Part shown: positions 4,487-20,275 of the stretch, piece by piece | Layout: each line of letters starts with the position of its first letter | Numbering within the stretch: the stretch's first letter is position 1 | Made by a program: the position numbers and the translations under genes | From: Halomonadaceae bacterium T82-2 | Lineage (GTDB): Bacteria > Pseudomonadota > Gammaproteobacteria > Pseudomonadales > Halomonadaceae | DNA length: 64,000 nt | Reading direction: 5' to 3' | Assembly: GCA_001577635.1 (NCBI GenBank) | Contig: LSBP01000002.1 | Location: 1 to 64,000, forward strand | The notes under the pieces: generated by a model | Told to the model about the DNA's origin: nothing | Database searches by the model: none | What the model saw: the letters and a program-made list of their open reading frames with translations, nothing else

Positions 4487-5050
4487 TCAATCGTGCGCAC
4501 CGCATACCGGAAAGCCGCTCTCCGCGCAGATCGCCTCGAAGGCCCCGGCGTCCCTTTCGTTGAAGAAGCACAGAATCACCTCAAGCGCATCCCCGGACGG
4601 CGCCTCGGCCAGCACGTCGAGCACCACGCGGGCCGCCTCGTCGAACGGATAGCCATAGGCCCCGGTAGAGATCGCCGGGAAGGCAATGCTGCGGCAGTCA
4701 TGATCGTCGGCCAGTGCCAGGGCGTTGCGGTAGCAGTTGGCGAGCAGGTGCGACTTGTCCTTCGTCTTCGCATAGACCGGGCCGACAGTATGGATGACGT
4801 AACGCGCCGGCAGGTTGAAGCCGCCGGTCAACGCCACTTCGCCATCCGGCAGGCCATCGGGCCAGTCGGTTTCGCGCAGGCGCCGACAGGCCTGCTTGAG
4901 TTCGGGGCCGGCGGCCCGGTGGATGGCGCCGTCCACGCCGCCACCCCCCATCAGCGAGTGGTTAGCGGCATTGACAATGGCATCCACCTCGAGCCGGGTG
5001 ATGTCGCCCGTTGTCACGCGGACGCGGCATTCGCTGGACATCGATGTCAT
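4487..5050 (-). CDS. Macro-domain protein, likely O-acetyl-ADP-ribose deacetylase
   Basis: A 187-residue single macro domain of the YmdB/MacroD type. Signatures include GDITRLEVDAIVNAANHSL (adenine-binding Asp and the catalytic-loop Asn), GGGGVDGAIHRAAG (phosphate loop), YVIHTVGPVY and AFPAISTGAYGYP (second phosphate loop). These enzymes hydrolyse O-acetyl-ADP-ribose or remove mono-ADP-ribose from acidic side chains. E. coli YmdB also modulates RNase III, whose gene lies elsewhere in this window. The Shine-Dalgarno GGAGGA lies just upstream of the ATG. A possible shared transcript with trxC, which lies 16 bp upstream on the same strand, is suggested by spacing. Confidence 0.9.
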   Translation of the reverse strand: MTSMSSECRVRVTTGDITRLEVDAIVNAANHSLMGGGGVDGAIHRAAGPELKQACRRLRETDWPDGLPDGEVALTGGFNLPARYVIHTVGPVYAKTKDKSHLLANCYRNALALADDHDCRSIAFPAISTGAYGYPFDEAARVVLDVLAEAPSGDALEVILCFFNERDAGAFEAICAESGFPVCGAHD

Positions 5051-8283: not shown

Positions 8284-9522
8284 ATGCCTGTCCCTTCCGT
8301 GCTGCGTGACCTCTCCCCGTCGGCACTCGTCGCCGGCTTCGTGGCGGTCCTGGTCGGCTATACCAGCTCGGCGGTGATCATCTTCCAGGCGGCAGAAGCT
8401 GCCGGCGCCGGCCCGGCGCAGATCGGCGCCTGGCTGAGCATGCTGGGACTGGGTATGGGCGTTACCTCTCTGGGCCTGTCGCTCTACTATCGCCAGCCAA
8501 TACTCACCGCCTGGTCGACCCCCGGCGCGGCTCTGCTCGCCACCAGTCTGCCCGGCTACAGCCTGCCCGAGGCAATCGGCGTGTTCCTGTTCTCGGCCGC
8601 GCTGGTGCTGCTCTGCGGAGTCACCGGGCTGTTCGCACGTCTCATGCAGCGCATTCCGCCGTCGATCGCCGCGGCCATGCTGGCCGGCGTATTGCTGCGT
8701 TTCGGGATCGATGCCTTCGCCGCCCTGCGCGTCGACTTTCCGCTGGTCGGGGCGATGTGCGCCGCCTACCTGATCGGCAAGCGCTGGCTGCCCCGTTACA
8801 CTATCCTGCTGGTACTGGCGGTCGGCCTGGGGGTGGCCTGGGCCGCCGGCGATATCGAGACACAGCGCACCGCACTGCGCTTCGTCGCGCCGACATTCAT
8901 CATGCCGGCGTTCTCGCCGGCGGCACTGATCGGCGTGGGGATCCCGCTGTTCGTGGTCAGCATGGCCTCGCAGAACGCCCCGGGTGTGGCGACCCTGCGC
9001 GCCGCGGGCTACACCGCGCCGGTCTCGCCACTGATGATCTGGACCGGGCTCGCCACCCTGGTGCTGGCGCCGTTCGGCGGCTTCTCGGTGTGCCTGGCGG
9101 CGATCACCGCGGCAATCTGCATGGGGCCGGAGGCGCACCCCGACCCGGCACGGCGCTACACGGCCGCCGCCGCCGCGGGGGGATTCTACCTGCTCGCCGG
9201 GGTGTTCGGCGGCTCGATCGGCACGCTGTTCGACGCCCTGCCCCAGCCGCTGATCGCCGCCGTCGCCGGCCTCGCCCTGCTCTCGACGATCGGCAACAGC
9301 CTGCACCAGGCACTGGACGACGCCAGTGAACGCGAGGCGGCGGTGGTGACCTTCCTGCTGACCGCCTCCGGCGTCACGCTGCTGGGTGTGGGCGCGGCGT
9401 TCTGGGGGCTGCTGGGGGGCTTGGCGGTACTCGCCCTGCACCGGCGGCCCCGAGCGGCGAACCGAGAGGAGGCGAGCAGCGATGCGGAACCCACCGAAGA
9501 TGGCGCCGTTCAGCGCGGCTAG
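8284..9522 (+). CDS. BenE-family (benzoate/H+ symporter-like) transporter
   Basis: A 412-residue integral membrane protein with about 11-12 hydrophobic segments and no signal peptide. It has the BenE-type start PSALVAGFVAVLVGYTSSAV, the loop LTAWSTPGAALLAT and GFSVCLAAITAAICMGPEAHPD. BenE-family proteins are annotated as benzoate:proton symporters of the NAT/APC fold, but most members have no tested substrate. No aromatic-degradation genes lie near, so a substrate other than benzoate is quite possible. Expression is probably controlled by the divergent XRE-cupin gene through the palindromes in the 112-bp gap. Confidence 0.88.
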   Translation: MPVPSVLRDLSPSALVAGFVAVLVGYTSSAVIIFQAAEAAGAGPAQIGAWLSMLGLGMGVTSLGLSLYYRQPILTAWSTPGAALLATSLPGYSLPEAIGVFLFSAALVLLCGVTGLFARLMQRIPPSIAAAMLAGVLLRFGIDAFAALRVDFPLVGAMCAAYLIGKRWLPRYTILLVLAVGLGVAWAAGDIETQRTALRFVAPTFIMPAFSPAALIGVGIPLFVVSMASQNAPGVATLRAAGYTAPVSPLMIWTGLATLVLAPFGGFSVCLAAITAAICMGPEAHPDPARRYTAAAAAGGFYLLAGVFGGSIGTLFDALPQPLIAAVAGLALLSTIGNSLHQALDDASEREAAVVTFLLTASGVTLLGVGAAFWGLLGGLAVLALHRRPRAANREEASSDAEPTEDGAVQRG

Positions 9523-9560: not shown

Positions 9561-10457
9561 TCAGGCCGTGCGCCGCGACGTCTCGTCGTCGGGAATCACG
9601 TCGACCGCCACGTCGAGCGTATGCTCGCCACCGCCGCTCATCACCCCGTTGAGCGGCGGCACGTCGGCATAGTCGCGCCCCCAGCCGACGACGATGTGCT
9701 GCTCGCCGGGCACGCTGCCGTTGGTGGGGTCGATTTCCAGCCAGCCCCAGCCCGGCAGGAATACCGCCAGCCAGGCGTGCGACGCGTCGGCGCCCACCAG
9801 TCTGGCCTGCCCGGGCGGCGGCAGCGTTTCCAGGTAGCCGCTGACATAGCGTGCCGCCAGCCCCTGCGAGCGCAGGCAGCCGATCGCCAGATGAGCGAAG
9901 TCCTGGCAGACGCCGCGCCGCTCGTCGAGCACGTCCATGAGCGGCGTGGCCAGCGTGGTGAACGTCGCGTCGTAGGTGAAGTCCTCGTGGATTCGGCGAT
10001 TCAGGTCGATCACCGCGTCGAGCAGCGAGCGCCCGGCCGGGAAGCTGGGTGCGGCGTACCCCGCCAGCCGCGGATGCCGGCGGATGAACGGTGAATCGAG
10101 GCGGAACTGGCGAGCCTGCAGGCAGCGGCGCTCGGCGGCCCGGGCGAGAGCGTCGCGGCAATCCTGCCAGTCGCCGGCCATCACCGTCGGCAGTGGCGGT
10201 CGCGACAGGGTCTCGAGCCGGGTCCGCACGGTGACCTCGAGGCTCGAGTGGATATCCTGGATCGCGAAGTACATCACCCGGTTGCCGAAGAAGTCACTGC
10301 GCTCGCTGCGCACCGCCGGGCGCGGATCGATATCCACCTGCGAGTCCTCGCAGCGCTGCCAGGGCAGCTCGCGCGGGAGCATGCGCGCCTCGTTGTGGCA
10401 TAGCGTCACCGGTGCGCTGTAGGTGTAGCGGGTGGTGTGGCGCAAACGGTAGATCAC
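9561..10457 (-). CDS. Transglutaminase-like protein of the ATP-grasp/alpha-E locus
   Basis: A 298-residue protein. The N-terminal beta domain (1-85; IYRLRHTTRYTYSAPVTLCHNEARM) is the bacterial transglutaminase-like N-terminal region. The core follows with the catalytic triad Cys184 (RRGVCQDFAH), His228 (ADASHAWL) and Asp243 (WLEIDPTNG). No signal peptide is present, so it should act in the cytoplasm. Related proteins are predicted thiol peptidases or amide-bond transferases. The start is a GTG that forms a GTGA overlap with the stop of the upstream ATP-grasp/alpha-E gene, which indicates translational coupling and a shared task. Its substrate is unknown. Confidence 0.9.
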   Translation of the reverse strand: MIYRLRHTTRYTYSAPVTLCHNEARMLPRELPWQRCEDSQVDIDPRPAVRSERSDFFGNRVMYFAIQDIHSSLEVTVRTRLETLSRPPLPTVMAGDWQDCRDALARAAERRCLQARQFRLDSPFIRRHPRLAGYAAPSFPAGRSLLDAVIDLNRRIHEDFTYDATFTTLATPLMDVLDERRGVCQDFAHLAIGCLRSQGLAARYVSGYLETLPPPGQARLVGADASHAWLAVFLPGWGWLEIDPTNGSVPGEQHIVVGWGRDYADVPPLNGVMSGGGEHTLDVAVDVIPDDETSRRTA

Positions 10458-13084
10458 GGCTGCACCTGCATCCTGATCAGCTGGCGCGGCGCCTCGACGT
10501 GGCTGAAGTGGCTGTGGGCGATGGCGTCGGAGAGCTTCTCCAGCGGCTCGAGCAGCGCCTCGAACAGCGCCGCCAGGGCCTCGCGGGCCTCGGCCGACTC
10601 GTGGACATGAGAGAGCATGTCGATATCGGCCAGCTGCAGCGTGCTCGAGGCCTGGAGGATCAGCCGCTGCTCCCGGCGCCGATACGGCGTGCCCGATGCC
10701 TCGCTCTGTGGCAGGCGTTCGATCTGGCGACACAGCCGCTTGAGCATGTAGCCCACCGAACGCGGGTTGCCCTCGTCGAACAGCAGCAGATCGAGAATCG
10801 CCGTGGGATGCAGTTCGCTGCGGTAGCGCCGGCGATAGGCGGTGACGTTATCGGTGGTGGCCAGTACCACCTCCCACAGTGCCACGCCCGGCTCGCGGGC
10901 CTCGATCAGCGCCAGCTGCAGCAGCTCCAGGGTGTGCAGCACACGCTCGATGAAACGTCCGATATCCATGAAACGCCAGCCGAAGTGGTGCGGCATGGTC
11001 TCGTTGCATAGCCCGAAGAAGGCCGACAGCTGGGTGACGACCTCCTCGCAGGCGCGCCGTCCGGCGCTCGCCGAGGGCACCGGCGACAGCGCATTGATGT
11101 GGCGGCGCAGATGGTTGAGCACGCGCCAGGCGTCGTCTCCCAGATGGTCGCGCACCGCCCGGCAGTTGCGCAGCATCGGCTGGAAGCAGGCCGGCAGCCC
11201 CGCCGGCTGGTCGTCCTCGAGGAGCGTCAGCAGGGTCGCACGCAGGTCGCCGAAGCGTCGCTCGGCGGCGGCCGCCGCGGGCCACTTCAGCGTCAATGCC
11301 TCGAACAGGTCGGCGAGGCTGATGTCGGCATACTCCTGCTGGTCCTGCTCGAGCAGACGCAGCAGGGCCTCGCGCAACAGCCGCGCGCGCACGTCGAGAC
11401 GCTCGCCGTAGCGTCCCAGCCAGAACAGGCTGTCGGCGACCCGGCTCGGCAGATCGACGCCATCGCGGGTGACCACGATCGGTCCGGCGGCCTGACGCAG
11501 CAGACTGACGTGCGGCTGCGGCTTCTCGGCCAGCACCCAGACATCCTTGACCACCTCGCTGGCCAGCGACGGCGTCCCGGGGCTGCCGACCCAGGCGAGC
11601 CCGCCCGGCATCGCCCGGTAGTCCCAGTCGCCGTCGCGCTCGCCCGGCTCGCGGGTCACGAAGGCACGCAGGTTGAACGGCGCGGGATGCAGGCGGTGCT
11701 CGGCATCGTCGTAGACCGGTGCGGTGGCGGGCATGATCGGCCGCTGGGCCACGTAGCGGGTCGGCCGCGCGATCACCGCCCTGCGCAGTGCCTGCGCCTG
11801 GTCCCGGCTCAGGCTCGACACCTCGACGAGCCGGGCGCCCGGCTCGATGCCGCGGACCACCAGGGCGTCGAACTCGGCGAGCACCGTCTCCAGCGAGGCC
11901 GGGTCGCCACACCACCAGCTTTCCGGGGAGGCCAGCGCGAGCGGCTCGCCGAGCAGGCGCTGGCAGAGCGCCGGCAGGTACGGCGCGAGCCCGGGATGCT
12001 CGAGCACGCTCACCCCCAGTGGATTGGACAGCGCGATGCCGCCGCTGCGCGCCGCCTGCACCAGGCCGGGCACGCCGATCAGCGAGTCGCCGCGCAGCTC
12101 CAGCGGATCGCACCAGGCATCCTCGAGCCGGCGCAGGATCACGTCGACCGGCTTGAGCCCGCCCAGGGTGCGCATCCACACCCGTTCGTCGCGCACCACC
12201 AGATCCAGGCTCTCGACCAGCGGGAGGTTCATGTAGTTGGCCAGGTAGGCATGCTCGAAGTAGCTGTCATTGTCCGGTCCTGGCGTCAGCAGCACCACGT
12301 GGGGCTGATCGCGATGCAGGGGCGACAGCGACGCCAGGGTGCGATGCTCGGCCTCGAGGAACCCGGCCAGGCGACGCAGCGGCGCCTCGCGATAGAGGTT
12401 GGGCATGGCGCGGGCAAGGATGATGCGGTTTTCCAGGGCGTAGCCGGCGCCCGACGGCGCCTGGACCCGGTCGGCGATCACCCGCCAGCGGCCCTCGGTG
12501 TCGAGCACCAGATCGATGCCGTGGAAGATCAGCCCCGACGGCGTGCCGGCAGGCTCGCCGGCAAGCTCGCCCCCCCGGTCGCAGGCCAGCAGAAAGCCGG
12601 GATGCTCGAAGATCAGTTCAGGCGGCAGCACGCCCTCGTCGATCAGCCGACGCGGCCCGTAGAGGTCGGCGAACAGCGCATCGAGCAGCCGGCTGCGCTG
12701 GGTCAGGCCGGCCTCGAGTTCGCGCCAGGTCGCGGGGTCGATCGCCAGCGGCAGCGGGTCGACCCGCCAGGTACGCAGGCGGCCGCGCGCGTCGTCGTGG
12801 ACGTTGAAGGTGACGCCGTTCTCGTAGAGCAGGCGCTGGACCTCATCGGAGCGCTCGGCGAGCCCCGCCTCGCCGAGCGACGCCAGCGCCTCGAGCAGCC
12901 CGCGCCAGTGCGGGCGCAGGCGCCCTTCACTATCTAGCAGGACGTCATGGCCCGTGCCGAGGGGGTAATCGCCGAGGAACGCCTCGAGCGCCTGCGCCGT
13001 CTCGGGCGACAGCGGCGCATCGAGCGCGAGGGCATCGCGCAGTCGCGCGGCATCCGGCAGACCGGGAACATCGTGACCCAGCAT
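10454..13084 (-). CDS. Circularly permuted ATP-grasp / alpha-E fusion protein
   Basis: An 876-residue protein. Residues about 60-540 match the circularly permuted ATP-grasp family: RLLYENGVTFNVHDD, an LYGPRRLI segment, VQAPSGAGYALENRIILARA, VVLLTPGPDNDSYFEHAYLA and VDVILRRLEDAWCDPLELR. The alpha-E domain begins near 545 (SRVADSLFWLGRYGERLDVRARLL) and is all-helical. ATP-grasp enzymes couple ATP hydrolysis to carboxylate-amine or carboxylate-thiol ligation, and this family has been proposed to make peptide bonds (comparative genomics by Iyer and colleagues on amidoligases). It overlaps the downstream transglutaminase gene by four bases. In the rightward operon of the same locus the equivalent ATP-grasp and alpha-E parts are separate genes. 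The start is the ATG at 13084. Confidence 0.9.
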   Translation of the reverse strand: MLGHDVPGLPDAARLRDALALDAPLSPETAQALEAFLGDYPLGTGHDVLLDSEGRLRPHWRGLLEALASLGEAGLAERSDEVQRLLYENGVTFNVHDDARGRLRTWRVDPLPLAIDPATWRELEAGLTQRSRLLDALFADLYGPRRLIDEGVLPPELIFEHPGFLLACDRGGELAGEPAGTPSGLIFHGIDLVLDTEGRWRVIADRVQAPSGAGYALENRIILARAMPNLYREAPLRRLAGFLEAEHRTLASLSPLHRDQPHVVLLTPGPDNDSYFEHAYLANYMNLPLVESLDLVVRDERVWMRTLGGLKPVDVILRRLEDAWCDPLELRGDSLIGVPGLVQAARSGGIALSNPLGVSVLEHPGLAPYLPALCQRLLGEPLALASPESWWCGDPASLETVLAEFDALVVRGIEPGARLVEVSSLSRDQAQALRRAVIARPTRYVAQRPIMPATAPVYDDAEHRLHPAPFNLRAFVTREPGERDGDWDYRAMPGGLAWVGSPGTPSLASEVVKDVWVLAEKPQPHVSLLRQAAGPIVVTRDGVDLPSRVADSLFWLGRYGERLDVRARLLREALLRLLEQDQQEYADISLADLFEALTLKWPAAAAAERRFGDLRATLLTLLEDDQPAGLPACFQPMLRNCRAVRDHLGDDAWRVLNHLRRHINALSPVPSASAGRRACEEVVTQLSAFFGLCNETMPHHFGWRFMDIGRFIERVLHTLELLQLALIEAREPGVALWEVVLATTDNVTAYRRRYRSELHPTAILDLLLFDEGNPRSVGYMLKRLCRQIERLPQSEASGTPYRRREQRLILQASSTLQLADIDMLSHVHESAEAREALAALFEALLEPLEKLSDAIAHSHFSHVEAPRQLIRMQVQP

Positions 13085-13130
13085 CGAGAGAGGCCCGTGA
13101 GGTGATGAAAGCCGACGTCATGATACCGCG

Positions 13131-13146
13131 TTTGCCGTCCGGCAAA
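13131..13146. promoter_or_regulatory. Inverted repeat upstream of the ATP-grasp/alpha-E gene
   Basis: TTTGCCG (13131-13137) and CGGCAAA (13140-13146) are perfect inverted copies two bases apart. On the minus strand a TATCAT -10-like hexamer (13125-13120) lies 5 bp downstream, so the repeat covers the -35 region and could be an operator. Confidence 0.45.
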
Positions 13147-13169
13147 GCGTCGATCTACGCGCCGGCACG

Positions 13170-13183
13170 ACGACATATGTCGT
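13170..13183. promoter_or_regulatory. 14-bp perfect palindrome in the same gap
   Basis: ACGACATATGTCGT is perfectly self-complementary. It lies in the 131-bp gap between the DUF2126 gene and the ATP-grasp/alpha-E gene, 23 bp from the other repeat. A second regulator site is plausible but untested. Confidence 0.4.
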
Positions 13184-13215
13184 ACCTCGACGCTCCCGGC
13201 TCCCGGCCCGGCCGT

Positions 13216-16200
13216 TCACGACCTGTGCCGCAGGTCCAGGGTCATGGGCATCTCCAGGCTTGGCGTCTCGGACGGTGCGCTCATGGTTCCCTGAGTATGG
13301 CCGTCGGCCCAGAAACGCGCCAGACGCCGCGCCTCGGCCTCGTTGGCGTTGATCGGAAAAGTCTCGTAATTGCGTCCGGCCGGGTGCGAGACATGATAGG
13401 TACAGCCGCCCACCGAGCGCGCATTCCAGGTATCGACGACGTCGAAGACCAGCGGCGCATGCACCGGAATCCGCGGATGCAGCGCCGACGGTGGTTGCCA
13501 GGCCCGAAAGCGCACCCCGGCGACCGCCTCGCCGACCCGGCCGGTGGCCGTCAGCGGCACCCGACGGCCGTTGCAGGTGACCGCGTAGCGATCGCCGCTC
13601 ATGCCCTCGACGCGGACCTGCAGGCGTTCTACCGAGGAGTCGACATAGCGCGCGGTGCCGCCTCCGGCGCTCTCCTCGCCGAGCACGTGCCAGGGTTCGA
13701 TCGCCTGGCGCAGCTCGAGCCGGACGTCGCGATAGGCCACGCGGCCGTGCACCGGGAAGCGGAATTCCAGGAACGGCGCGAACCATTCCGGCCGGAAGTC
13801 GAAACCATGACGCCGCAGATCGTCGAGCACGTCGCCGAGGTCATTCCACAGGCAGTGCGGGAGCAACCAGCGGTCGTGCAGCGCCGTACCCCAGCGCACC
13901 AGCTTGCCGCGATACGGGCGCTCCCAGCAGCGCGCCACCAGGGCACGGATCAGCAGCATCTGGATCAGGCTCATGCGGGCATGGGGCGGCATCTCGAAGG
14001 CGCGCAGCTCGACCAGCCCCAGGCGGCCGGTCTCGCTGTCCGGCGAATAGAGCTTGTCGATGCAGAACTCGGCGCGATGGGTGTTGCCGGTGATGTCGGT
14101 GAGCAGGTGGCGCAGCAGGCGATCGACCAGCCACGGCTGGGGCACCTCGCCCTCGGGCATCTGCGAGAGCGCGATCTCCAGCTCGTAGAGCGCCTCGTGG
14201 CGCGCTTCGTCGACTCGCGGCGCCTGGCTGGTGGGGCCGATGAACAGTCCCGAGAACAGGTACGACAGGCTGGGATGGTGCTGCCAGTAGGTGAGCAGGC
14301 TGCCCAGCAGGTCGGGACGGCGCAGGAACGGCGAATCGGCGGGCGTCGCGCCGCCCAGGGTGACGTGATTGCCGCCGCCGGTGCCGGTGTGACGGCCGTC
14401 GAGCATGAACTTCTCGGTGCCCAACCGGGCCTGCCGGGCCTCCTCGTAGAGGGTCTCGGTATGGGCGACCAGCGAGGGCCAGTCCTCGGCCGGCATGATG
14501 TTGACCTCGATCACCCCGGGGTCGGGGGTGATCAGGAACTTCGCCAGGCGCGGATCGGCCGGCGGCGGGTAGCCCTCGACGATCACCGGCATGGCAAGCT
14601 TGGCGGCGGTATCCTCGATGCTCGCCACCAGGTCGAGGTAGTGCTCGAGCCGCGTCAGCGGCGGCATGAACACGTGCACCCGGCCGTCGCGCGGCTCGAC
14701 GCACAGACTGGTATGAATCACCGCGTCGTCGCGATCCTCGGCGGGCGGCGCCTGGTCCTGCCACGCCTCGCCGCCGGGCTCGTGGTGCAGGCCGTGGCCG
14801 GCATCGCCGGCCTGGCGCTCGCGCAGCTCGCTGTAGCGACGCATCACCTCGCCGTGGACATCGCCGAGCGCCTGGCGGAACTCGAACAGCGACTGCGGAT
14901 GGGGCTGGTCCGGGCGCTCGACCCACGGCAGCGCGCTCAGCGGCAGGCGCAGGCCCATCGGCGAATCGCCGGGGATCAGATAGAGATGATCGCGCCTGAG
15001 CGGCCAGTGGCCGCTCTGCCAGGCATGGGCGCGCCCCCGGGCATGGCGCAGCGGCAGGGCGAAGCCGGTGGCCTCGCCCAGCCCCCGCTCGAGCAACTGG
15101 CCCAGCCGGCGCCGCTCCTCGTCATCATCGAGATCGTAGTCGCGCGGGTCGACGTTGACCGGCAGGGTGCGCTCGCGCCACAGGTAGTAGTAGGCGTCCT
15201 CGTAACCGGGGATCAGATGGCGGGGGTCGAGCCCCAGGCGCCGCGTCAGGGCCTCGGCGAAGCGCCGGGCGTCGTCGATCGTGTAGCGTCCCGCCTGGCG
15301 GTCGTCGGCGAGCAGCGCCTCGTCGCGCCACAGCGGCACGCCGTCGCGTCGCCAGTAGCAGGCCAGCGCCCAGCGCGGCAGCGACTCCCCCGGATACCAC
15401 TTGCCCTGATGGGTGTGCAGCAGCCCGCCCGTGGCGAAGCGTCGGCGCAGGCGCTTGAGCAGGTCCCCGGCCAGCCGGCGCTTGTGGGGCCCCAGGGCGG
15501 CGGTGTTCCACTCCTCGCCGTCCATGTCGTCGATCGACACGAAGGTCGGCTCGCCGCCCAGGGTCAGGCGCACGTCGCCGGCCGCGAGACGCGCGTCGAC
15601 GGCCTCGCCGAGCGCCATGATCTCGGCCCACTGCGTCTCGCTGTAGGGCCGGGTGACCCGCGGGTCCTCGTGGATGCGTTCGACGTGCATGGTGAAGTCG
15701 AACTCGACCTCGCACTCGTCGGAGAAGCCGCTGATCGGCGCCGCACTGGACGGCTCCGGCGTCGCCGCCAGCGGGATGTGCCCCTCCCCGGCCAGCAGCC
15801 CCGAGGTCGGGTCCAGCCCCACCCAGCCGGCCCCGGGAATGAACACCTCGGTCCAGGCATGCAGGTCGGTGAAGTCGACCTCGGTGCCCGACGGGCCGTC
15901 GAGCGCCTTGACGTCGGCGGCCAGCTGGATCAGGTAGCCGGACACGAAGCGCGCCGCCAGCCCCAGGTGGCGCAGGATCTGCACCAGCAGCCAGGCGCTG
16001 TCACGACACGAGCCGCTGCCGCTGGCGAGCGTCTCCTCGCAGCTCTGCACCCCGGGCTCCATGCGCACCAGGTAAGCGATGTCGTGCTGCAGCCGCTGGT
16101 TGAGGTCGACCAGGAAATCGACCGAGCGGCGTTCTCCCGGCGCTACGCGGCTCAGCCAGTCACGCAGCCGCTCGCCCGCCTCGCGCACCTCGAGATAGGG

Positions 16201-16545
16201 CGCCAGCTCCTTGGCCAGCCCCTCGGGATAGGCGAAGGGAAACGTCTCGGCGTAGGGCTCGACGAAGAAGTCGAAGGGGTTGATCACGGTCATCGGCGCG
16301 ATGAGTTCGATGTCGACCGTCAGCTGCGTGAGCTTTTCGGGGAACACCGCACGGGCGATGAAGTTGCCGAAGGGGTCCTGCTGCCAGTTGAGGAAATGGG
16401 GACCGCCGTCGATCGTCAGCGAATAGGCCTCGATCGGCGTCCGGCAATGCGGTGCGGGTCTCAGGCGGATCAGATGCGGCGAGAGGTTGACCGGGCGATC
16501 GAAGTGATAGCGGGTGTGGTGCTGCAAGGCGACGCGAATCGTCAT
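13216..16545 (-). CDS. Transglutaminase/DUF2126 large protein
   Basis: A 1109-residue protein. Residues 1-260 are a transglutaminase-like unit with the triad Cys180 (SGSCRDSAWL), His229 (DLHAWTEVF) and Asp245 (GLDPTSG). The remainder, from about 340, is the DUF2126 region with LGGEPTFVSIDD, LIPGYEDAYYYLW, GDSPMGLRLPLSALPW, HTGTGGGNHVTLGG and ITGNTHRAEFCIDKLYSPDS. This region has been proposed to belong to the glutamine-synthetase-like carboxylate-amine ligases, and the Gly-rich GTGGGNH motif fits that idea. The protein would then carry both a bond-forming and a bond-breaking or transferring domain. The ATG at 16545 begins the typical MTIRVALQHHTRYHFD; the 30 codons upstream are not family-like. 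It is divergent from the second ATP-grasp gene and 131 bp upstream of the first. Confidence 0.9.
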   Translation of the reverse strand: MTIRVALQHHTRYHFDRPVNLSPHLIRLRPAPHCRTPIEAYSLTIDGGPHFLNWQQDPFGNFIARAVFPEKLTQLTVDIELIAPMTVINPFDFFVEPYAETFPFAYPEGLAKELAPYLEVREAGERLRDWLSRVAPGERRSVDFLVDLNQRLQHDIAYLVRMEPGVQSCEETLASGSGSCRDSAWLLVQILRHLGLAARFVSGYLIQLAADVKALDGPSGTEVDFTDLHAWTEVFIPGAGWVGLDPTSGLLAGEGHIPLAATPEPSSAAPISGFSDECEVEFDFTMHVERIHEDPRVTRPYSETQWAEIMALGEAVDARLAAGDVRLTLGGEPTFVSIDDMDGEEWNTAALGPHKRRLAGDLLKRLRRRFATGGLLHTHQGKWYPGESLPRWALACYWRRDGVPLWRDEALLADDRQAGRYTIDDARRFAEALTRRLGLDPRHLIPGYEDAYYYLWRERTLPVNVDPRDYDLDDDEERRRLGQLLERGLGEATGFALPLRHARGRAHAWQSGHWPLRRDHLYLIPGDSPMGLRLPLSALPWVERPDQPHPQSLFEFRQALGDVHGEVMRRYSELRERQAGDAGHGLHHEPGGEAWQDQAPPAEDRDDAVIHTSLCVEPRDGRVHVFMPPLTRLEHYLDLVASIEDTAAKLAMPVIVEGYPPPADPRLAKFLITPDPGVIEVNIMPAEDWPSLVAHTETLYEEARQARLGTEKFMLDGRHTGTGGGNHVTLGGATPADSPFLRRPDLLGSLLTYWQHHPSLSYLFSGLFIGPTSQAPRVDEARHEALYELEIALSQMPEGEVPQPWLVDRLLRHLLTDITGNTHRAEFCIDKLYSPDSETGRLGLVELRAFEMPPHARMSLIQMLLIRALVARCWERPYRGKLVRWGTALHDRWLLPHCLWNDLGDVLDDLRRHGFDFRPEWFAPFLEFRFPVHGRVAYRDVRLELRQAIEPWHVLGEESAGGGTARYVDSSVERLQVRVEGMSGDRYAVTCNGRRVPLTATGRVGEAVAGVRFRAWQPPSALHPRIPVHAPLVFDVVDTWNARSVGGCTYHVSHPAGRNYETFPINANEAEARRLARFWADGHTQGTMSAPSETPSLEMPMTLDLRHRS

Positions 16546-16674
16546 GGCGGCCCCCGTTGGCGCGACGGATACCGGTATGACCGGCGGATGCCCTTCACTA
16601 TCGGCCGGGGCCGCGCCCAGCACAACCTGCAACATCGTGTATCAACGCTTGGCGAGAGGCGGTCACTCACAAAC

Positions 16675-16683
16675 TGGTATAGC
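16675..16683 (+). promoter_or_regulatory. Extended -10 candidate for the split ATP-grasp operon
   Basis: TGGTATAGC lies about 75 bp before the ATG in the 213-bp divergent gap, just ahead of an A/T-rich run. No good -35 element is present. This gap has no other recognisable feature. Confidence 0.35.
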
Positions 16684-16758
16684 TTTAAAAAGGCCCCCGC
16701 GGCGTGTAACGGACCGAAATCGCGACCCGCTTGCCGGTCGCCTGCCGAGGTAACGCCC

Positions 16759-18213
16759 ATGAGTCTCATCGATTGGCAGAACTACCGCAGCAACGGTTTC
16801 TACGACGAGCTCCTGGCGGCCCCCGGCCAGCCCCGCCCCGCGGCCCGGGAACTCTGCGACATCCTCGCCGGCTTCACGCCGCAGGACCTCTCGGAGCGCA
16901 AGGCCGCCGCCGAGATCGCCATCCAGACCATGGGCATCACCTTCACCGTGTACTCCGAGGGCAGCATGATCGATCGCGCCTGGCCGTTCGACATCGTCCC
17001 GCGGATCATCCCCGCCGACGAGTGGCGGCGCACCGAGGCGGGGCTCAAGCAGCGCGTCGAGGCGCTCAACCTGTTCATCGACGACCTCTACCATGACCAG
17101 CGCATCGTCAGGGACAAGGTGCTGCCCGCCGAGGTCCTGGCCCAGTCGGTCAACTTCCGCCCGCAATGCCGCGGCATCGACCCGCCCCACCACGTCTGGG
17201 CGCACATCTGCGGCTCGGACCTGGTCCGCGACGCCGACGGCACCCTCTACGTGCTCGAGGACAACCTGCGGGTGCCCTCCGGGGTCTCCTACATGCTCGA
17301 GAACCGCAACGTCACCAAGCGGGTGCTGCCCGAGGTCTTCGCCACCGGGCGCATCCTGCCGGTCGACGACTACTGCGCCCAGCTCTACGACATGCTGGCC
17401 AGCCTCTCGCCGCGCCCCCACGACGAGCCGCAGGTGGTGGTGCTGACCCCGGGGATCTACAACTCCGCCTACTACGAGCATGCCTACCTGGCCCAGCAGA
17501 TGGGCGTCGAGCTGGTCCAGGGCTCGGACCTGGTGGTCGATGACGACGACATCGTCTACATGCGCACCATCGAGGGGCTGACGCGGGTCGACGTGATCTA
17601 TCGCCGCATCGACGACCTGTTCCTCGACCCCGAGGTCTTCAATCCCGAGTCCACGCTGGGTGTCGCGGGGCTGATGCGCGCCTGGCGCGCCGGCAAGGTG
17701 GCGCTCGCCAATGCCCCCGGCGCCGGCGTCGCCGACGACAAGGTGGTCTACGCCTTCGTGCCGAAGATCATTCGCTACTATCTCGATCAGGAAGCCATCC
17801 TGCCCAACGTGCCCAGCTACCTGTGCATGTTCGAGAAGGATCGCCGCTACGTGCTCGACCATCTCGATGAGCTGGTGGTCAAGCCGGCCAACGAGTCCGG
17901 CGGCTACGGCATGCTGATCGGCCCGCGCGCCACGCCGACCCAGCGCGCCGCGTTCGCCGAGCGAATCCAGGCCGACCCGCGCAACTACATGGCCCAGCCG
18001 ACGCTCAACCTGTCGACCGCACCGACGCTGTGCGACGGTCATGCCGAGCCGCGTCACGTCGACCTGCGTCCCTTCATTCTTTCCGGCACCGACATCCAGG
18101 TCACCACCGGTGGACTGACCCGGGTGGCGCTGGTCAAGGATTCGCTGGTCGTGAACTCCTCGCAGGGCGGGGGTAGCAAGGACACCTGGATCGTCGAGAC
18201 CGACGGGGAGTGA
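16759..18213 (+). CDS. Circularly permuted ATP-grasp protein (stand-alone)
   Basis: A 484-residue protein of the circularly permuted ATP-grasp family (former DUF404/DUF407). It has MGITFTVYSEGSMIDRAWPFDIVPRII, YVLEDNLRVPSGVSYMLENR, VVVLTPGIYNSAYYEHAYLA, VDVIYRRIDDLFLDP and ELVVKPANESGGYGMLIGP, the last being the ATP-grasp nucleotide-binding strand and glycine loop. It should use ATP to join a carboxylate and an amine, probably on a peptide. It is immediately followed by an alpha-E gene, and together they mirror the fused protein at 10454-13084. The start is the ATG at 16759. A very long open frame that begins far upstream is an antisense artefact over the DUF2126 gene. Confidence 0.92.
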   Translation: MSLIDWQNYRSNGFYDELLAAPGQPRPAARELCDILAGFTPQDLSERKAAAEIAIQTMGITFTVYSEGSMIDRAWPFDIVPRIIPADEWRRTEAGLKQRVEALNLFIDDLYHDQRIVRDKVLPAEVLAQSVNFRPQCRGIDPPHHVWAHICGSDLVRDADGTLYVLEDNLRVPSGVSYMLENRNVTKRVLPEVFATGRILPVDDYCAQLYDMLASLSPRPHDEPQVVVLTPGIYNSAYYEHAYLAQQMGVELVQGSDLVVDDDDIVYMRTIEGLTRVDVIYRRIDDLFLDPEVFNPESTLGVAGLMRAWRAGKVALANAPGAGVADDKVVYAFVPKIIRYYLDQEAILPNVPSYLCMFEKDRRYVLDHLDELVVKPANESGGYGMLIGPRATPTQRAAFAERIQADPRNYMAQPTLNLSTAPTLCDGHAEPRHVDLRPFILSGTDIQVTTGGLTRVALVKDSLVVNSSQGGGSKDTWIVETDGE

Positions 18214-18218
18214 ATGCC

Positions 18219-19208
18219 ATGCTGTCGCGAGTCGCCGAGAACCTCTACTGGATGGCACGCTACATCGAGCGCGCCGAGGACACCGCACGCCTGGTCAGCG
18301 TGAACAGCCACCTGCTGCTCGACCTGCCCCATCAGACGGCCCTGGGCTGGTCGACGCTGATCGACATCACCGGCAGCGACGAGACCTTCGCCACGCTGCA
18401 CGACCGGCGCAACGAGAAGAACGTCGTGCACTTTCTCTGCGTCGAGCGCGAGAACCCCGGCTCGATCCTCTCCTCGCTGGCCGGCGCCCGGGAGAACCTG
18501 CGCACCACCCGCGACGTGGTCTCGCGCGAGATCTGGGAGCAGATCAACGAGATGTATCTGGAGGTTCGCGACCAGGCCGAGCACGGCCTCGCGCCGCGGC
18601 GTCGCGACGGCTTCCTCAAGCGCCTGATCCGCGGCTGCCAGACGCTCACCGGGCTGATCGAGGGCACCCTGAGTCATTCGGCGGCGCGCACCTTCATCGA
18701 GATCGGCCGCCATCTCGAGCGCGCCGACATGACCACCCGCATCCTCGACGTGCGCTCGGGCAACCTGCTGCCCAAGGACCCCGAAGAGCTGCGCCCCTTC
18801 GAGAATCTGCAGTGGATGAGCGTGCTCAAGTCGCTGACCGCCTATCAGATGTACCGCCAGCAGGTTCGCCTGCGGGTCCGCGGGCCCGACGTACTGCGTT
18901 TCCTGCTCCAGGACCAGCACTTCCCGCGGGCGGTGGCGAGAAGCCTCGAGGCGCTGGCCTGGGAGCTGCAGTCGCTGCCCCGCCACGACCGCGCCCTGGC
19001 GGCGGCGGCACTGGTCCGTGCCGACGCGCTCGAGGCCGACATGCAGGCCCTGGCCCGCTCACCCGACGAGCTGCACGCCTTCATCGATGAGCTGCAGATC
19101 GGCTTCAATACCCTGCATGACGCCATCGCCGCGACCTACTTTGCCCATCCGGAGGATACACCACACGCCAGGGCGACCTCGGCCCAGAGCCACGCCCGCG
19201 CGGACTGA
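18219..19208 (+). CDS. Alpha-E domain protein
   Basis: A 329-residue all-helical alpha-E (DUF403) protein that opens with the family signature MLSRVAENLYWMARYIERAEDTARL. Further motifs are HFLCVERENPGSI, RTTRDVVSREIWEQIN and EIGRHLERADMTTRILDVR. Members always accompany the permuted ATP-grasp ligase and are probably a structural or substrate-holding partner; no enzyme activity is established. Two starts are possible: a GTG at 18210 that overlaps the previous stop, or the ATG at 18219. The ATG is preferred because GGGGAG lies eight bases upstream and the family begins there. It converges with the metallopeptidase gene 20 bp away. Confidence 0.9.
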   Translation: MLSRVAENLYWMARYIERAEDTARLVSVNSHLLLDLPHQTALGWSTLIDITGSDETFATLHDRRNEKNVVHFLCVERENPGSILSSLAGARENLRTTRDVVSREIWEQINEMYLEVRDQAEHGLAPRRRDGFLKRLIRGCQTLTGLIEGTLSHSAARTFIEIGRHLERADMTTRILDVRSGNLLPKDPEELRPFENLQWMSVLKSLTAYQMYRQQVRLRVRGPDVLRFLLQDQHFPRAVARSLEALAWELQSLPRHDRALAAAALVRADALEADMQALARSPDELHAFIDELQIGFNTLHDAIAATYFAHPEDTPHARATSAQSHARAD

Positions 19209-19228
19209 GCCGACCCGTTACCGACTCG

Positions 19229-20275
19229 TTAGTGGGCTGCGGATCGTACCAGCCCATGCACATAGCTCAGCTTGGTCTGGATAGCGGCCGTGACGACCTC
19301 GGGCACCAGGTCGGTCAACCCCATCTCGCGATTGAGCTCGTTGGCGGCGAGCCCCACCTGCTGAAAGGCCGAGAGCATGCGCGGCAGGCTGGCGTCGTGA
19401 TCGATCCCCGAGAAACCCAGATGATGGGCCGTATCGAGTACCGAGACGATATCCAGGTAGAAGGCGAAGGTTTCGGCGAAATCCTCCCACGGATGCATGG
19501 TGGCATAGGCGGAGACGAAATCCGCCGGCCAGCCGGCGGGCGGCCCCGCTTCGTAGTAGTGTTCCAGTGCCTCGCCGTAGGTCGGTGAGTCGTGATCGCC
19601 GAACACCTCACGGAAAGCATCCTCGTCACGCCCCCTGACCAGCAGATCCCAGTAGTAGTGGCCGATCTCGTGGCGGAAATGACCGATCAGCGTGCGGTGG
19701 GACTCGTTCATGTCAACGCGCAGCCGCTCGCGTTCGACAGCGTCGGCTTCCTTGACGTTGATGGTGATGTGGCCCTCGGCATGCCCGGTATAGACCCGTT
19801 CATTGCCCGCCGTGGAGCGCCAGAGACCGGCATCCGGCAGGGCATCGGCCATGAACGAGAAGCTCAGCGGCGGATCGAAGCCCTCCTCGGCGGTACCATG
19901 CGGCAGCGCCAGCAGGTCGAGGGTATAGAACAGTCGCCGCTTGGCCGCCTCGAGCGCCGCCCAGCGCTCGCGGTGCCCCTCGACCGACAGGTCGGGCACC
20001 ACGTCATTGTAGCGACAGCAGTCGCACAGCGCCTCGGCCCGGCCGTCGACGATGGTCACCAGCCGGTTGCAGACGTCGTGGTCGGCATAGTTGCGGCACT
20101 TGAGCAGTGCCGCACCGCAGTCGTCGTTCAGGCAACGGTAGCCGCCCTCCGCCAGGGAATCGAGCGCACTGATGCGAGCGCAATCGGGGCACCAGCCAAC
20201 CTCGTGGCCGCAGGCCAGGCAGTGGGTATTGTCAAAGAACAGCCTGGCCCCGCAGACACACTCATAGGTTTTCAT
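19229..20275 (-). CDS. Putative zinc-binding metallopeptidase with N-terminal zinc ribbons
   Basis: A 348-residue protein. The first 90 residues contain many cysteines in ribbon-like pairs (C6/C8, C19/C22, C29/C32, C48/C53, C60, C69, C84/C86/C87). The rest is a gluzincin-like domain with RHEIGHYYWD (HEIGH at 202-206) and a downstream Glu-rich helix in PWEDFAETFAFYLD that could supply the third zinc ligand. It matches the family annotated as putative zinc-binding metallopeptidase or zinc-ribbon domain-containing protein (DUF2248). No signal peptide is present, so it is cytoplasmic. Related genes are frequently found beside ATP-grasp/alpha-E loci, so it may trim or recycle their product (inference). 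The ATG at 20275 follows GGGAG. Confidence 0.85.
   Translation of the reverse strand: MKTYECVCGARLFFDNTHCLACGHEVGWCPDCARISALDSLAEGGYRCLNDDCGAALLKCRNYADHDVCNRLVTIVDGRAEALCDCCRYNDVVPDLSVEGHRERWAALEAAKRRLFYTLDLLALPHGTAEEGFDPPLSFSFMADALPDAGLWRSTAGNERVYTGHAEGHITINVKEADAVERERLRVDMNESHRTLIGHFRHEIGHYYWDLLVRGRDEDAFREVFGDHDSPTYGEALEHYYEAGPPAGWPADFVSAYATMHPWEDFAETFAFYLDIVSVLDTAHHLGFSGIDHDASLPRMLSAFQQVGLAANELNREMGLTDLVPEVVTAAIQTKLSYVHGLVRSAAH

Follow-up and report, generated by a model that had tools for sequence, protein, structure and literature searches.

Systems that combine a circularly permuted ATP-grasp, an adjacent alpha-E protein, and a transglutaminase-like protein form a known class, which, according to passages of later papers, Iyer et al. 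2009 described earlier as predicted amidoligase systems. The best-studied member of the class is the Anbu operon (ATP-grasp, alpha-E, transglutaminase, and Anbu; PP_2685 to PP_2688 in P. putida). The available passages of PMC6376114 report that an ATP-grasp from an Anbu operon releases phosphate from ATP, with no stimulation by glutamine or glutamate, in a study that could not separate ligation from hydrolysis.

Here, we describe a six-gene block from a genome (3.42 Mb) of a Halomonadaceae bacterium close to Modicisalibacter. The window, i.e., the whole stretch of DNA analyzed, is 64,000 nucleotides long (G000:C2:1-64000). Pfam detected in the block a circularly permuted ATP-grasp, an adjacent alpha-E protein, and a transglutaminase-like protein, and the block thus belongs to this class. 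It has the same domain set, and the same predicted peptide synthesis or modification, as the Iyer et al. 2009 systems represented in the later papers, and it shares the first three families of the Anbu operon, also in an operonic arrangement. Unlike the Anbu operon, the block lies in a genome with no Anbu match (five-sequence Anbu profile; E ≤ 1e-10), in which the single proteasome-family match was HslV, and its stand-alone ATP-grasp (AG2) falls in a clade separate from the Anbu type. Beyond the Anbu operon, the block adds a transglutaminase-DUF2126 protein (TG-DUF2126), a pseudo-ATP-grasp fusion (AGf-AEf), and a metallopeptidase (PMX).

Gene content and organization

All six genes carry domains scoring over the curated Pfam cut-offs (Table 1), and the domains named by an earlier sequence-only reading were all present. 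The broader proposal of that reading, a predicted system that forms and breaks amide bonds and is without a published product, holds for the domains, and no product was found in the available passages of the open-licence PMC literature.

TABLE 1 Features of the six-gene block (positions in the window)
Feature	Description	Position	Strand	Evidence
TG1	Stand-alone transglutaminase-like	9561..10457	-	Pfam (Bact_transglu_N + Transglut_core)
AGf-AEf	Circularly permuted ATP-grasp (CP_ATPgrasp) fused to Alpha-E, predicted pseudo-ligase	10454..13084	-	Pfam, residue counts, tree
TG-DUF2126	Transglutaminase-like domain + DUF2126	13216..16635	-	Pfam, alignment, model, Foldseek
Divergent promoter region	Between TG-DUF2126 and AG2	16546..16758	.	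Upstream-site scans
AG2	Stand-alone CP_ATPgrasp, motif residues intact	16759..18213	+	Pfam, residue counts, 3n6x match
AE2	Alpha-E	18210..19208	+	Pfam, alignments, model
PMX	Zinc-ribbon + Peptidase_Mx metallopeptidase	19229..20275	-	Pfam, motif counts, co-occurrence

TG1, AGf-AEf, and TG-DUF2126 are transcribed leftward and AG2 and AE2 rightward from a common divergent region, with PMX transcribed leftward at the end. Two pairs of genes share a 4-base overlap (the TG1 start, a GTG codon, overlaps the stop of the upstream gene, and the AE2 start overlaps the AG2 stop). The other intra-block gaps are 131, about 213, and 20 bp, leaving scant space for a precursor peptide. The TG-DUF2126 frame ends at 16635, and its conserved start is probably at 16545; AG2 sits within a longer open frame starting at 13102. 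The window genome has two alpha-E matches, both inside the block. A BenE-type transporter gene (8284-9522) adjoins the block; also to its left, a macro-domain gene (4487-5050) lies near thioredoxin-like and HTH-cupin regulator genes.

Conservation of the locus

Loci anchored on the peptidase were those of the best 80 of 364 peptidase relatives, many of them from Halomonadaceae; among these 80, the nearest relative of the window PMX was that of Modicisalibacter tunisiensis (Halomonadaceae; 89% identity). The fetched stretches contained all six genes in 32 of the 80 loci, AG2 in 53, and no other system gene in 23. The gene order is conserved and is not due to chance, and the gene set was found again in several phyla. 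Four Rufibacter loci (L058, L069, L072, and L079) have the order AG2-AE2-TG1-PMX and a planctomycete locus (L073) the order AG2-AE2-TG-DUF2126-PMX, indicating that the peptidase is part of the system in distant phyla too.

Of 40 regions fetched around DUF2126, 36 contained AGf and 36 contained TG1. Both were absent from L127 (where DUF2126 is split and low scoring), L143, and L152; AGf was absent from L153, and TG1 from L148, which is cut at the region edge. Three loci (L039, L045, and L068) have AG2, AE2, PMX, and a transglutaminase, with AGf-AEf and TG-DUF2126 not seen in the fetched stretch, and the fetched stretch of L041 lacks TG-DUF2126 alone; thus, the modules can separate.

Some loci had irregular genes. 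In L026 (AP019416.1, a complete genome record), most block genes are broken over several frames, by sequencing error or decay, and split block genes also occur in parts of L016, L040, and L056. In the Rhodopirellula genome of L080, three adjacent places on one contig (G267:C248:18866-27675) match DUF2126, which suggests tandem copies, and another contig has one more match.

Co-occurrence in Pseudomonadota and neighboring genes

An evenly drawn sample of 249 Pseudomonadota genomes was searched for DUF2126 (present in 75), alpha-E (145), PMX (47, including three [G174, G185, and G233] with fragmentary or weak matches), and Anbu (98). Given this patchy distribution of DUF2126 and alpha-E, and the nitrogen-limitation induction published for relatives, the "housekeeping" role that had been proposed for the block is not supported. 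Alpha-E was present in all 75 DUF2126 genomes, and at least two copies were present in 70 of these versus 10 of the 174 genomes without DUF2126. In the remaining five (G036, G049, G064, G081, and G218), the single alpha-E lies in a frame of 313 to 370 amino acids, i.e., it is of the stand-alone kind. Judged from these alpha-E matches, DUF2126 seems to depend on the stand-alone pair more strongly than on AGf-AEf.

Alpha-E was also found in 46 of the 47 PMX genomes versus 99 of the 202 others, in all 24 of the peptidase-bearing genomes reached via loci, and in 96 of the 98 Anbu genomes. The 145 alpha-E genomes comprised 35 with Anbu and the peptidase, 61 with Anbu alone, 11 with the peptidase alone, and 38 with neither. 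The idea that the metallopeptidase substitutes for Anbu was discarded, as the two were not mutually exclusive (Fisher p, 0.09; related genomes are not independent, and such p-values, like the site counts given below, are overstated).

Clustering of neighboring genes (161 loci; ORFs of ≥90 amino acids) revealed no recurring substrate gene. Anbu recurred at 25 loci. Ten other clusters, named from one representative each, included GGDEF/EAL, aldehyde dehydrogenase, sodium:solute symporter (24 loci), carboxymuconolactone decarboxylase, CorA (13 loci), DUF3581, LysR, and two without a match; they occur mostly in Halomonadaceae, and their recurrence is a raw count. The tenth cluster, an oligopeptide/dipeptide-type ABC transporter, lies near the ATP-grasp in 8 of the 161 loci (e.g., L148:9968-11854), likewise a raw count.

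Intact stand-alone and degenerate fused ATP-grasps

ATP-grasps were scored at 11 conserved motif positions, after exclusion of proteins with <380 residues or <150 bits. Going by the general features of the fold, and not by a ligand structure, we assign these positions to the metal and nucleotide sites. All 11 residues were present in 105 of 106 stand-alone ATP-grasps (105 distinct sequences, window included); the exception, with 9, comes from the broken locus L056. The fused ATP-grasps (75 distinct sequences, window included) retained at most 4 residues in 75 of 75 cases (0 residues, n = 1; 1, n = 34; 2, n = 20; 3, n = 19; 4, n = 1). Of the 75 fused sequences, 1 has the E of the VLEDN motif and none has its N, and 10 keep the VVKP lysine. 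A further set of 30 rows from 24 genomes (24 AG2 rows, which repeat 8 first-set genes, and 6 fused rows representing 5 genes, one a repeat) added 16 stand-alone genes, all intact, and 4 fused genes, all degenerate (three from planctomycete genomes and one from a gammaproteobacterium). L046, which had looked like a fused ATP-grasp whose site is intact, was dismissed; its AG2-like label came from a contig-end fragment, and the remaining motif is degenerate.

Other residues are still held by the fused form, namely, R183 and E240 in 75 of 75 sequences and R437 in 74. Their retention suggests that AGf is kept for something besides ATP use and is a pseudo-enzyme and not debris. Judged by its residues, the fused ATP-grasp is predicted to be a conserved pseudo-ligase, and the ATP-grasp-alpha-E fusion is probably a helper.

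In a quick tree of 113 rows, a single branch (SH-aLRT, 100) divided fused from stand-alone ATP-grasps, and a recent local duplication was rejected on this ground; some fused branches are very long, and relations within the fused group are unsure. The stand-alone rows fell into a window-type clade (24), an Anbu-type clade (38), or neither (8). Members of the window-type clade are mostly next to DUF2126 and/or PMX; 5 have Anbu nearby, and 2 have none of these. The closest solved structure to AG2 by sequence is 3n6x (466 aligned residues; E = 3.5e-154), a homologue named glutathionylspermidine synthase, a name that is putative only.

The sequence-only reading had seen the locus as two parallel versions. 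The pairs within the window are indeed homologous (identities of 32% for the ATP-grasps, 24% for alpha-E, and 28% for the transglutaminases), but they are not equivalent, since one ATP-grasp is catalytically degenerate. Within the block, AG2 has an intact motif (11/11) and AGf does not, and the proposal that both ATP-grasp genes form bonds had to be given up for the fused one. We did not encounter this motif loss, or the pairing of the fused form with an intact copy, in the available passages of the open-licence PMC literature.

Transglutaminases, DUF2126, alpha-E, and metallopeptidase

The catalytic residues of TG1-type transglutaminases (window included) were conserved (Cys, 71/71; His, 71/71; Asp, 70/71), as were Cys, His, and Asp in the DUF2126-fused domains (77/77). 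The Cys was present in 25 of 26 Anbu-adjacent transglutaminases and in 11 of 13 of the other AG2-adjacent type.

Pfam labels DUF2126 a putative amidoligase. The TG-DUF2126 model (pLDDT, 79.4) matched transglutaminase 3isr in Foldseek (E = 1.1e-12) and weakly resembled 9qur, of the gamma-glutamylmethylamide synthetase/glutamine synthetase fold (E = 0.0098, above 0.001; probability, 0.80). This fold likeness had no counterpart in sequence, as the DUF2126 profile retrieved no glutamine synthetase relative among PDB sequences (four matches alone; E = 1.3 to 2.4). A glutamine-synthetase-like DUF2126 is thus a prediction to which the model lends slight fold support.

The AE2 model is all helical (pLDDT, 92.4) and had no match among PDB folds at E ≤ 0.001 (best, 0.18). 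Model alignment A1 consisted of the window and 63 of 69 selected stand-alone alpha-E rows, with 0 of 25 fused rows; model alignment A2 consisted of the window and 46 of 48 rows. L016, L026, L047, and L056 had been left out beforehand. AE2 has two ER motifs (E20R21 and E170R171). Stand-alone domains keep the ER at positions 20 and 21 in 104 to 105 of 108 cases, and fused domains keep it in 68 to 69 of 69. At position 170, 107 of 108 stand-alone domains have E, and all 69 fused domains have E or D. When positions 18210-19208 and 10454-13084 of the window were compared, a second, weak alignment (E = 0.03) set the beginning of one alpha-E against the central part of its counterpart. The two ER motifs and this alignment hint at an internal duplication.

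All 90 PMX relatives scored carry an H[ED]xxH motif, and 85 of the 90 have at least three CxxC motifs. The literature passages available describe no activity for DUF2126, alpha-E, or PMX.

Promoter-like sites and nitrogen limitation

Promoter elements of the sigma-54 type (-24/-12) frequently serve genes used under nitrogen scarcity. Sites of this type with at most one mismatch were enriched upstream of system genes. They preceded 14 of 43 distant, mostly Anbu-type ATP-grasps (shuffles, 0.53), where 5 of the 14 sites touch or overlap the estimated gene start so that starts or sites are approximate; 7 of 40 TG-DUF2126 genes (0.93); and 3 of 14 window-type ATP-grasps (0.17). None were found upstream of 34 Anbu genes (shuffles, 0.3), and neighboring control genes, for which the first ATG was taken as the start, had 5 in 456. 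Many Halomonas/Vreelandella relatives carry such elements in the divergent region: among 38 divergent loci, almost all from Halomonadaceae and hence related, a site with at most one mismatch pointed toward AG2 in 20, toward DUF2126 in 16, and in both directions in 14. We did not encounter these divergent sites, or the link between the peptidase and alpha-E, in the available passages of the open-licence PMC literature.

No such site was found in the divergent region of the window, where the best candidates have 3 and 4 mismatches, nor in L004 to L007, L081, L032, L034, L035, L038, and L052. Six of the siteless loci, namely, the window (16675-16683), L004 to L007, and L081, have in common the motif TGGTATAGC, which may represent either an extended -10 element or a site that has decayed.

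Published data, as far as the passages available go, also connect the class with nitrogen. In B. cenocepacia, I35_5080-83 are among the common targets of sigma-54 and NtrC (PMC5491218); I35_5083, described there as a "large protein containing transglutaminase-like domain," is a candidate for the DUF2126 protein. In P. putida, PP_2685 and PP_2688 increased on nitrate versus ammonium (log2, +4.44 and +3.99; PMC8050072), and PP_2686-2688 rose 12.6-, 11.0-, and 14.7-fold in the nitrogen-limited wild type, with PP_2685 (Anbu) at 1.12-fold (PMC7801951). In the rpoN mutant, the same three genes rose 14.2-, 16.0-, and 19.6-fold (PMC7801951), which argues against a strict need for sigma-54 in P. putida. 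Apart from the P. putida nitrogen result, operon expression was unchanged in various conditions (PMC5666114). A 2025 survey of the sigma-54 regulon includes the proteasome-type protease COG3484 (PMC12316311). The Anbu operon has both a published induction by nitrogen limitation and, in this analysis, enriched sigma-54-type sites. We take COG3484 to be Anbu.

Proposed mechanism and alternatives

The block is best read as a ligase/amidase system that is linked to nitrogen stress and would act on a peptide or an amine. It would be one cytoplasmic conjugation/deconjugation system, linked to nitrogen limitation, and not two copies of one machine; we give this explanation somewhat less than an even chance, with the rpoN-mutant values (PMC7801951), which speak against strict sigma-54 control, weighing on it. 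Gene content, dead and intact motif residues, co-occurrence, and promoter-like site enrichment were computed here, and the substrate, the direction, and the role of each partner we infer as follows. AG2 would activate a carboxylate with ATP and couple it to an amine, as a working ligase together with AE2, which may bind or position the substrate. TG-DUF2126 would provide another ligase, of a glutamine-synthetase-like kind, in one chain with a cysteine amidase, and AGf-AEf would be a dead ATP-grasp retained as its scaffold or substrate-binding partner. TG1 and the metallopeptidase would take off or recycle the amide. The ancestral role may have been the handling of peptide- or amine-bound nitrogen under nitrogen limitation, with sigma-54-type promoters in many lineages and absent from that of the window. 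The nearest named ligase types are glutathionylspermidine synthetase and gamma-glutamylmethylamide synthetase, which couple amines to peptides or to glutamate; by analogy, an amine or polyamine would be a reasonable first substrate. A bolder form, in which the dead ATP-grasp-alpha-E protein is a substrate carrier for TG-DUF2126 and the intact pair makes the conjugate, would amount to a nitrogen-starvation tagging or amine-shuttling system, in several phyla, that works without ubiquitin-like proteins; we consider it rather unlikely.

Pupylation-like tagging and turnover of proteins is a little less likely still; tagging was already proposed in a passage of PMC6376114. Proteins would receive a small tag or an amino acid from the ligases and be degraded or detagged by Anbu or the metallopeptidase, and nitrogen starvation would trigger this amino acid recycling. 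Anbu is a proteasome relative (PDB match) that closely tracks alpha-E, and in L152 and L153, TG-DUF2126 and Anbu are immediate neighbors on one strand. However, the window genome has HslV and lacks an Anbu match, the recurring neighbors (ORFs of ≥90 amino acids) include no tag gene, and Anbu was inactive on standard peptide substrates and showed no specific binding to operon partners (available passages of PMC6376114).

On a par with tagging in its low probability is a dedicated small peptide or amide metabolite (an osmolyte, storage compound, or thiol peptide) trimmed by the transglutaminase and peptidase. Small peptides are common products of ATP-grasp and glutamine-synthetase-like ligases, the name of 3n6x would fit such a product, and genes for transporters are found repeatedly around the block in relatives (raw counts). 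Against it, none of the ten neighbor clusters (one representative each) is a tailoring gene recurring across lineages, and induction under nitrogen limitation suits scavenging better than storage.

A reading of the two halves as parallel ligase systems, each with a substrate of its own, is improbable: the ATP-grasp/alpha-E pairs and the transglutaminases are homologous, but the fused ATP-grasp has lost the motif residues in 75 of 75 sequences, and the five DUF2126 genomes with one alpha-E hold the stand-alone kind. An antibiotic/RiPP cluster or anti-phage defense, which amide ligases and peptidases known from such systems might recall, is highly improbable for a gene set found in several phyla, and a defense or phage origin was rejected, with no matches for the six proteins in PADLOC and for four in PHROGs.

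Returning to the conjugation/deconjugation system, alpha-E serves as its marker, found in 145 of the 249 sampled Pseudomonadota genomes, yet the available passages of the open-licence PMC literature yielded no product or substrate. The promoter and expression evidence makes nitrogen limitation the condition to examine. The split between intact and dead ATP-grasps makes AG2, with AE2, the protein to assay as a ligase and AGf-AEf the one to treat as a partner.
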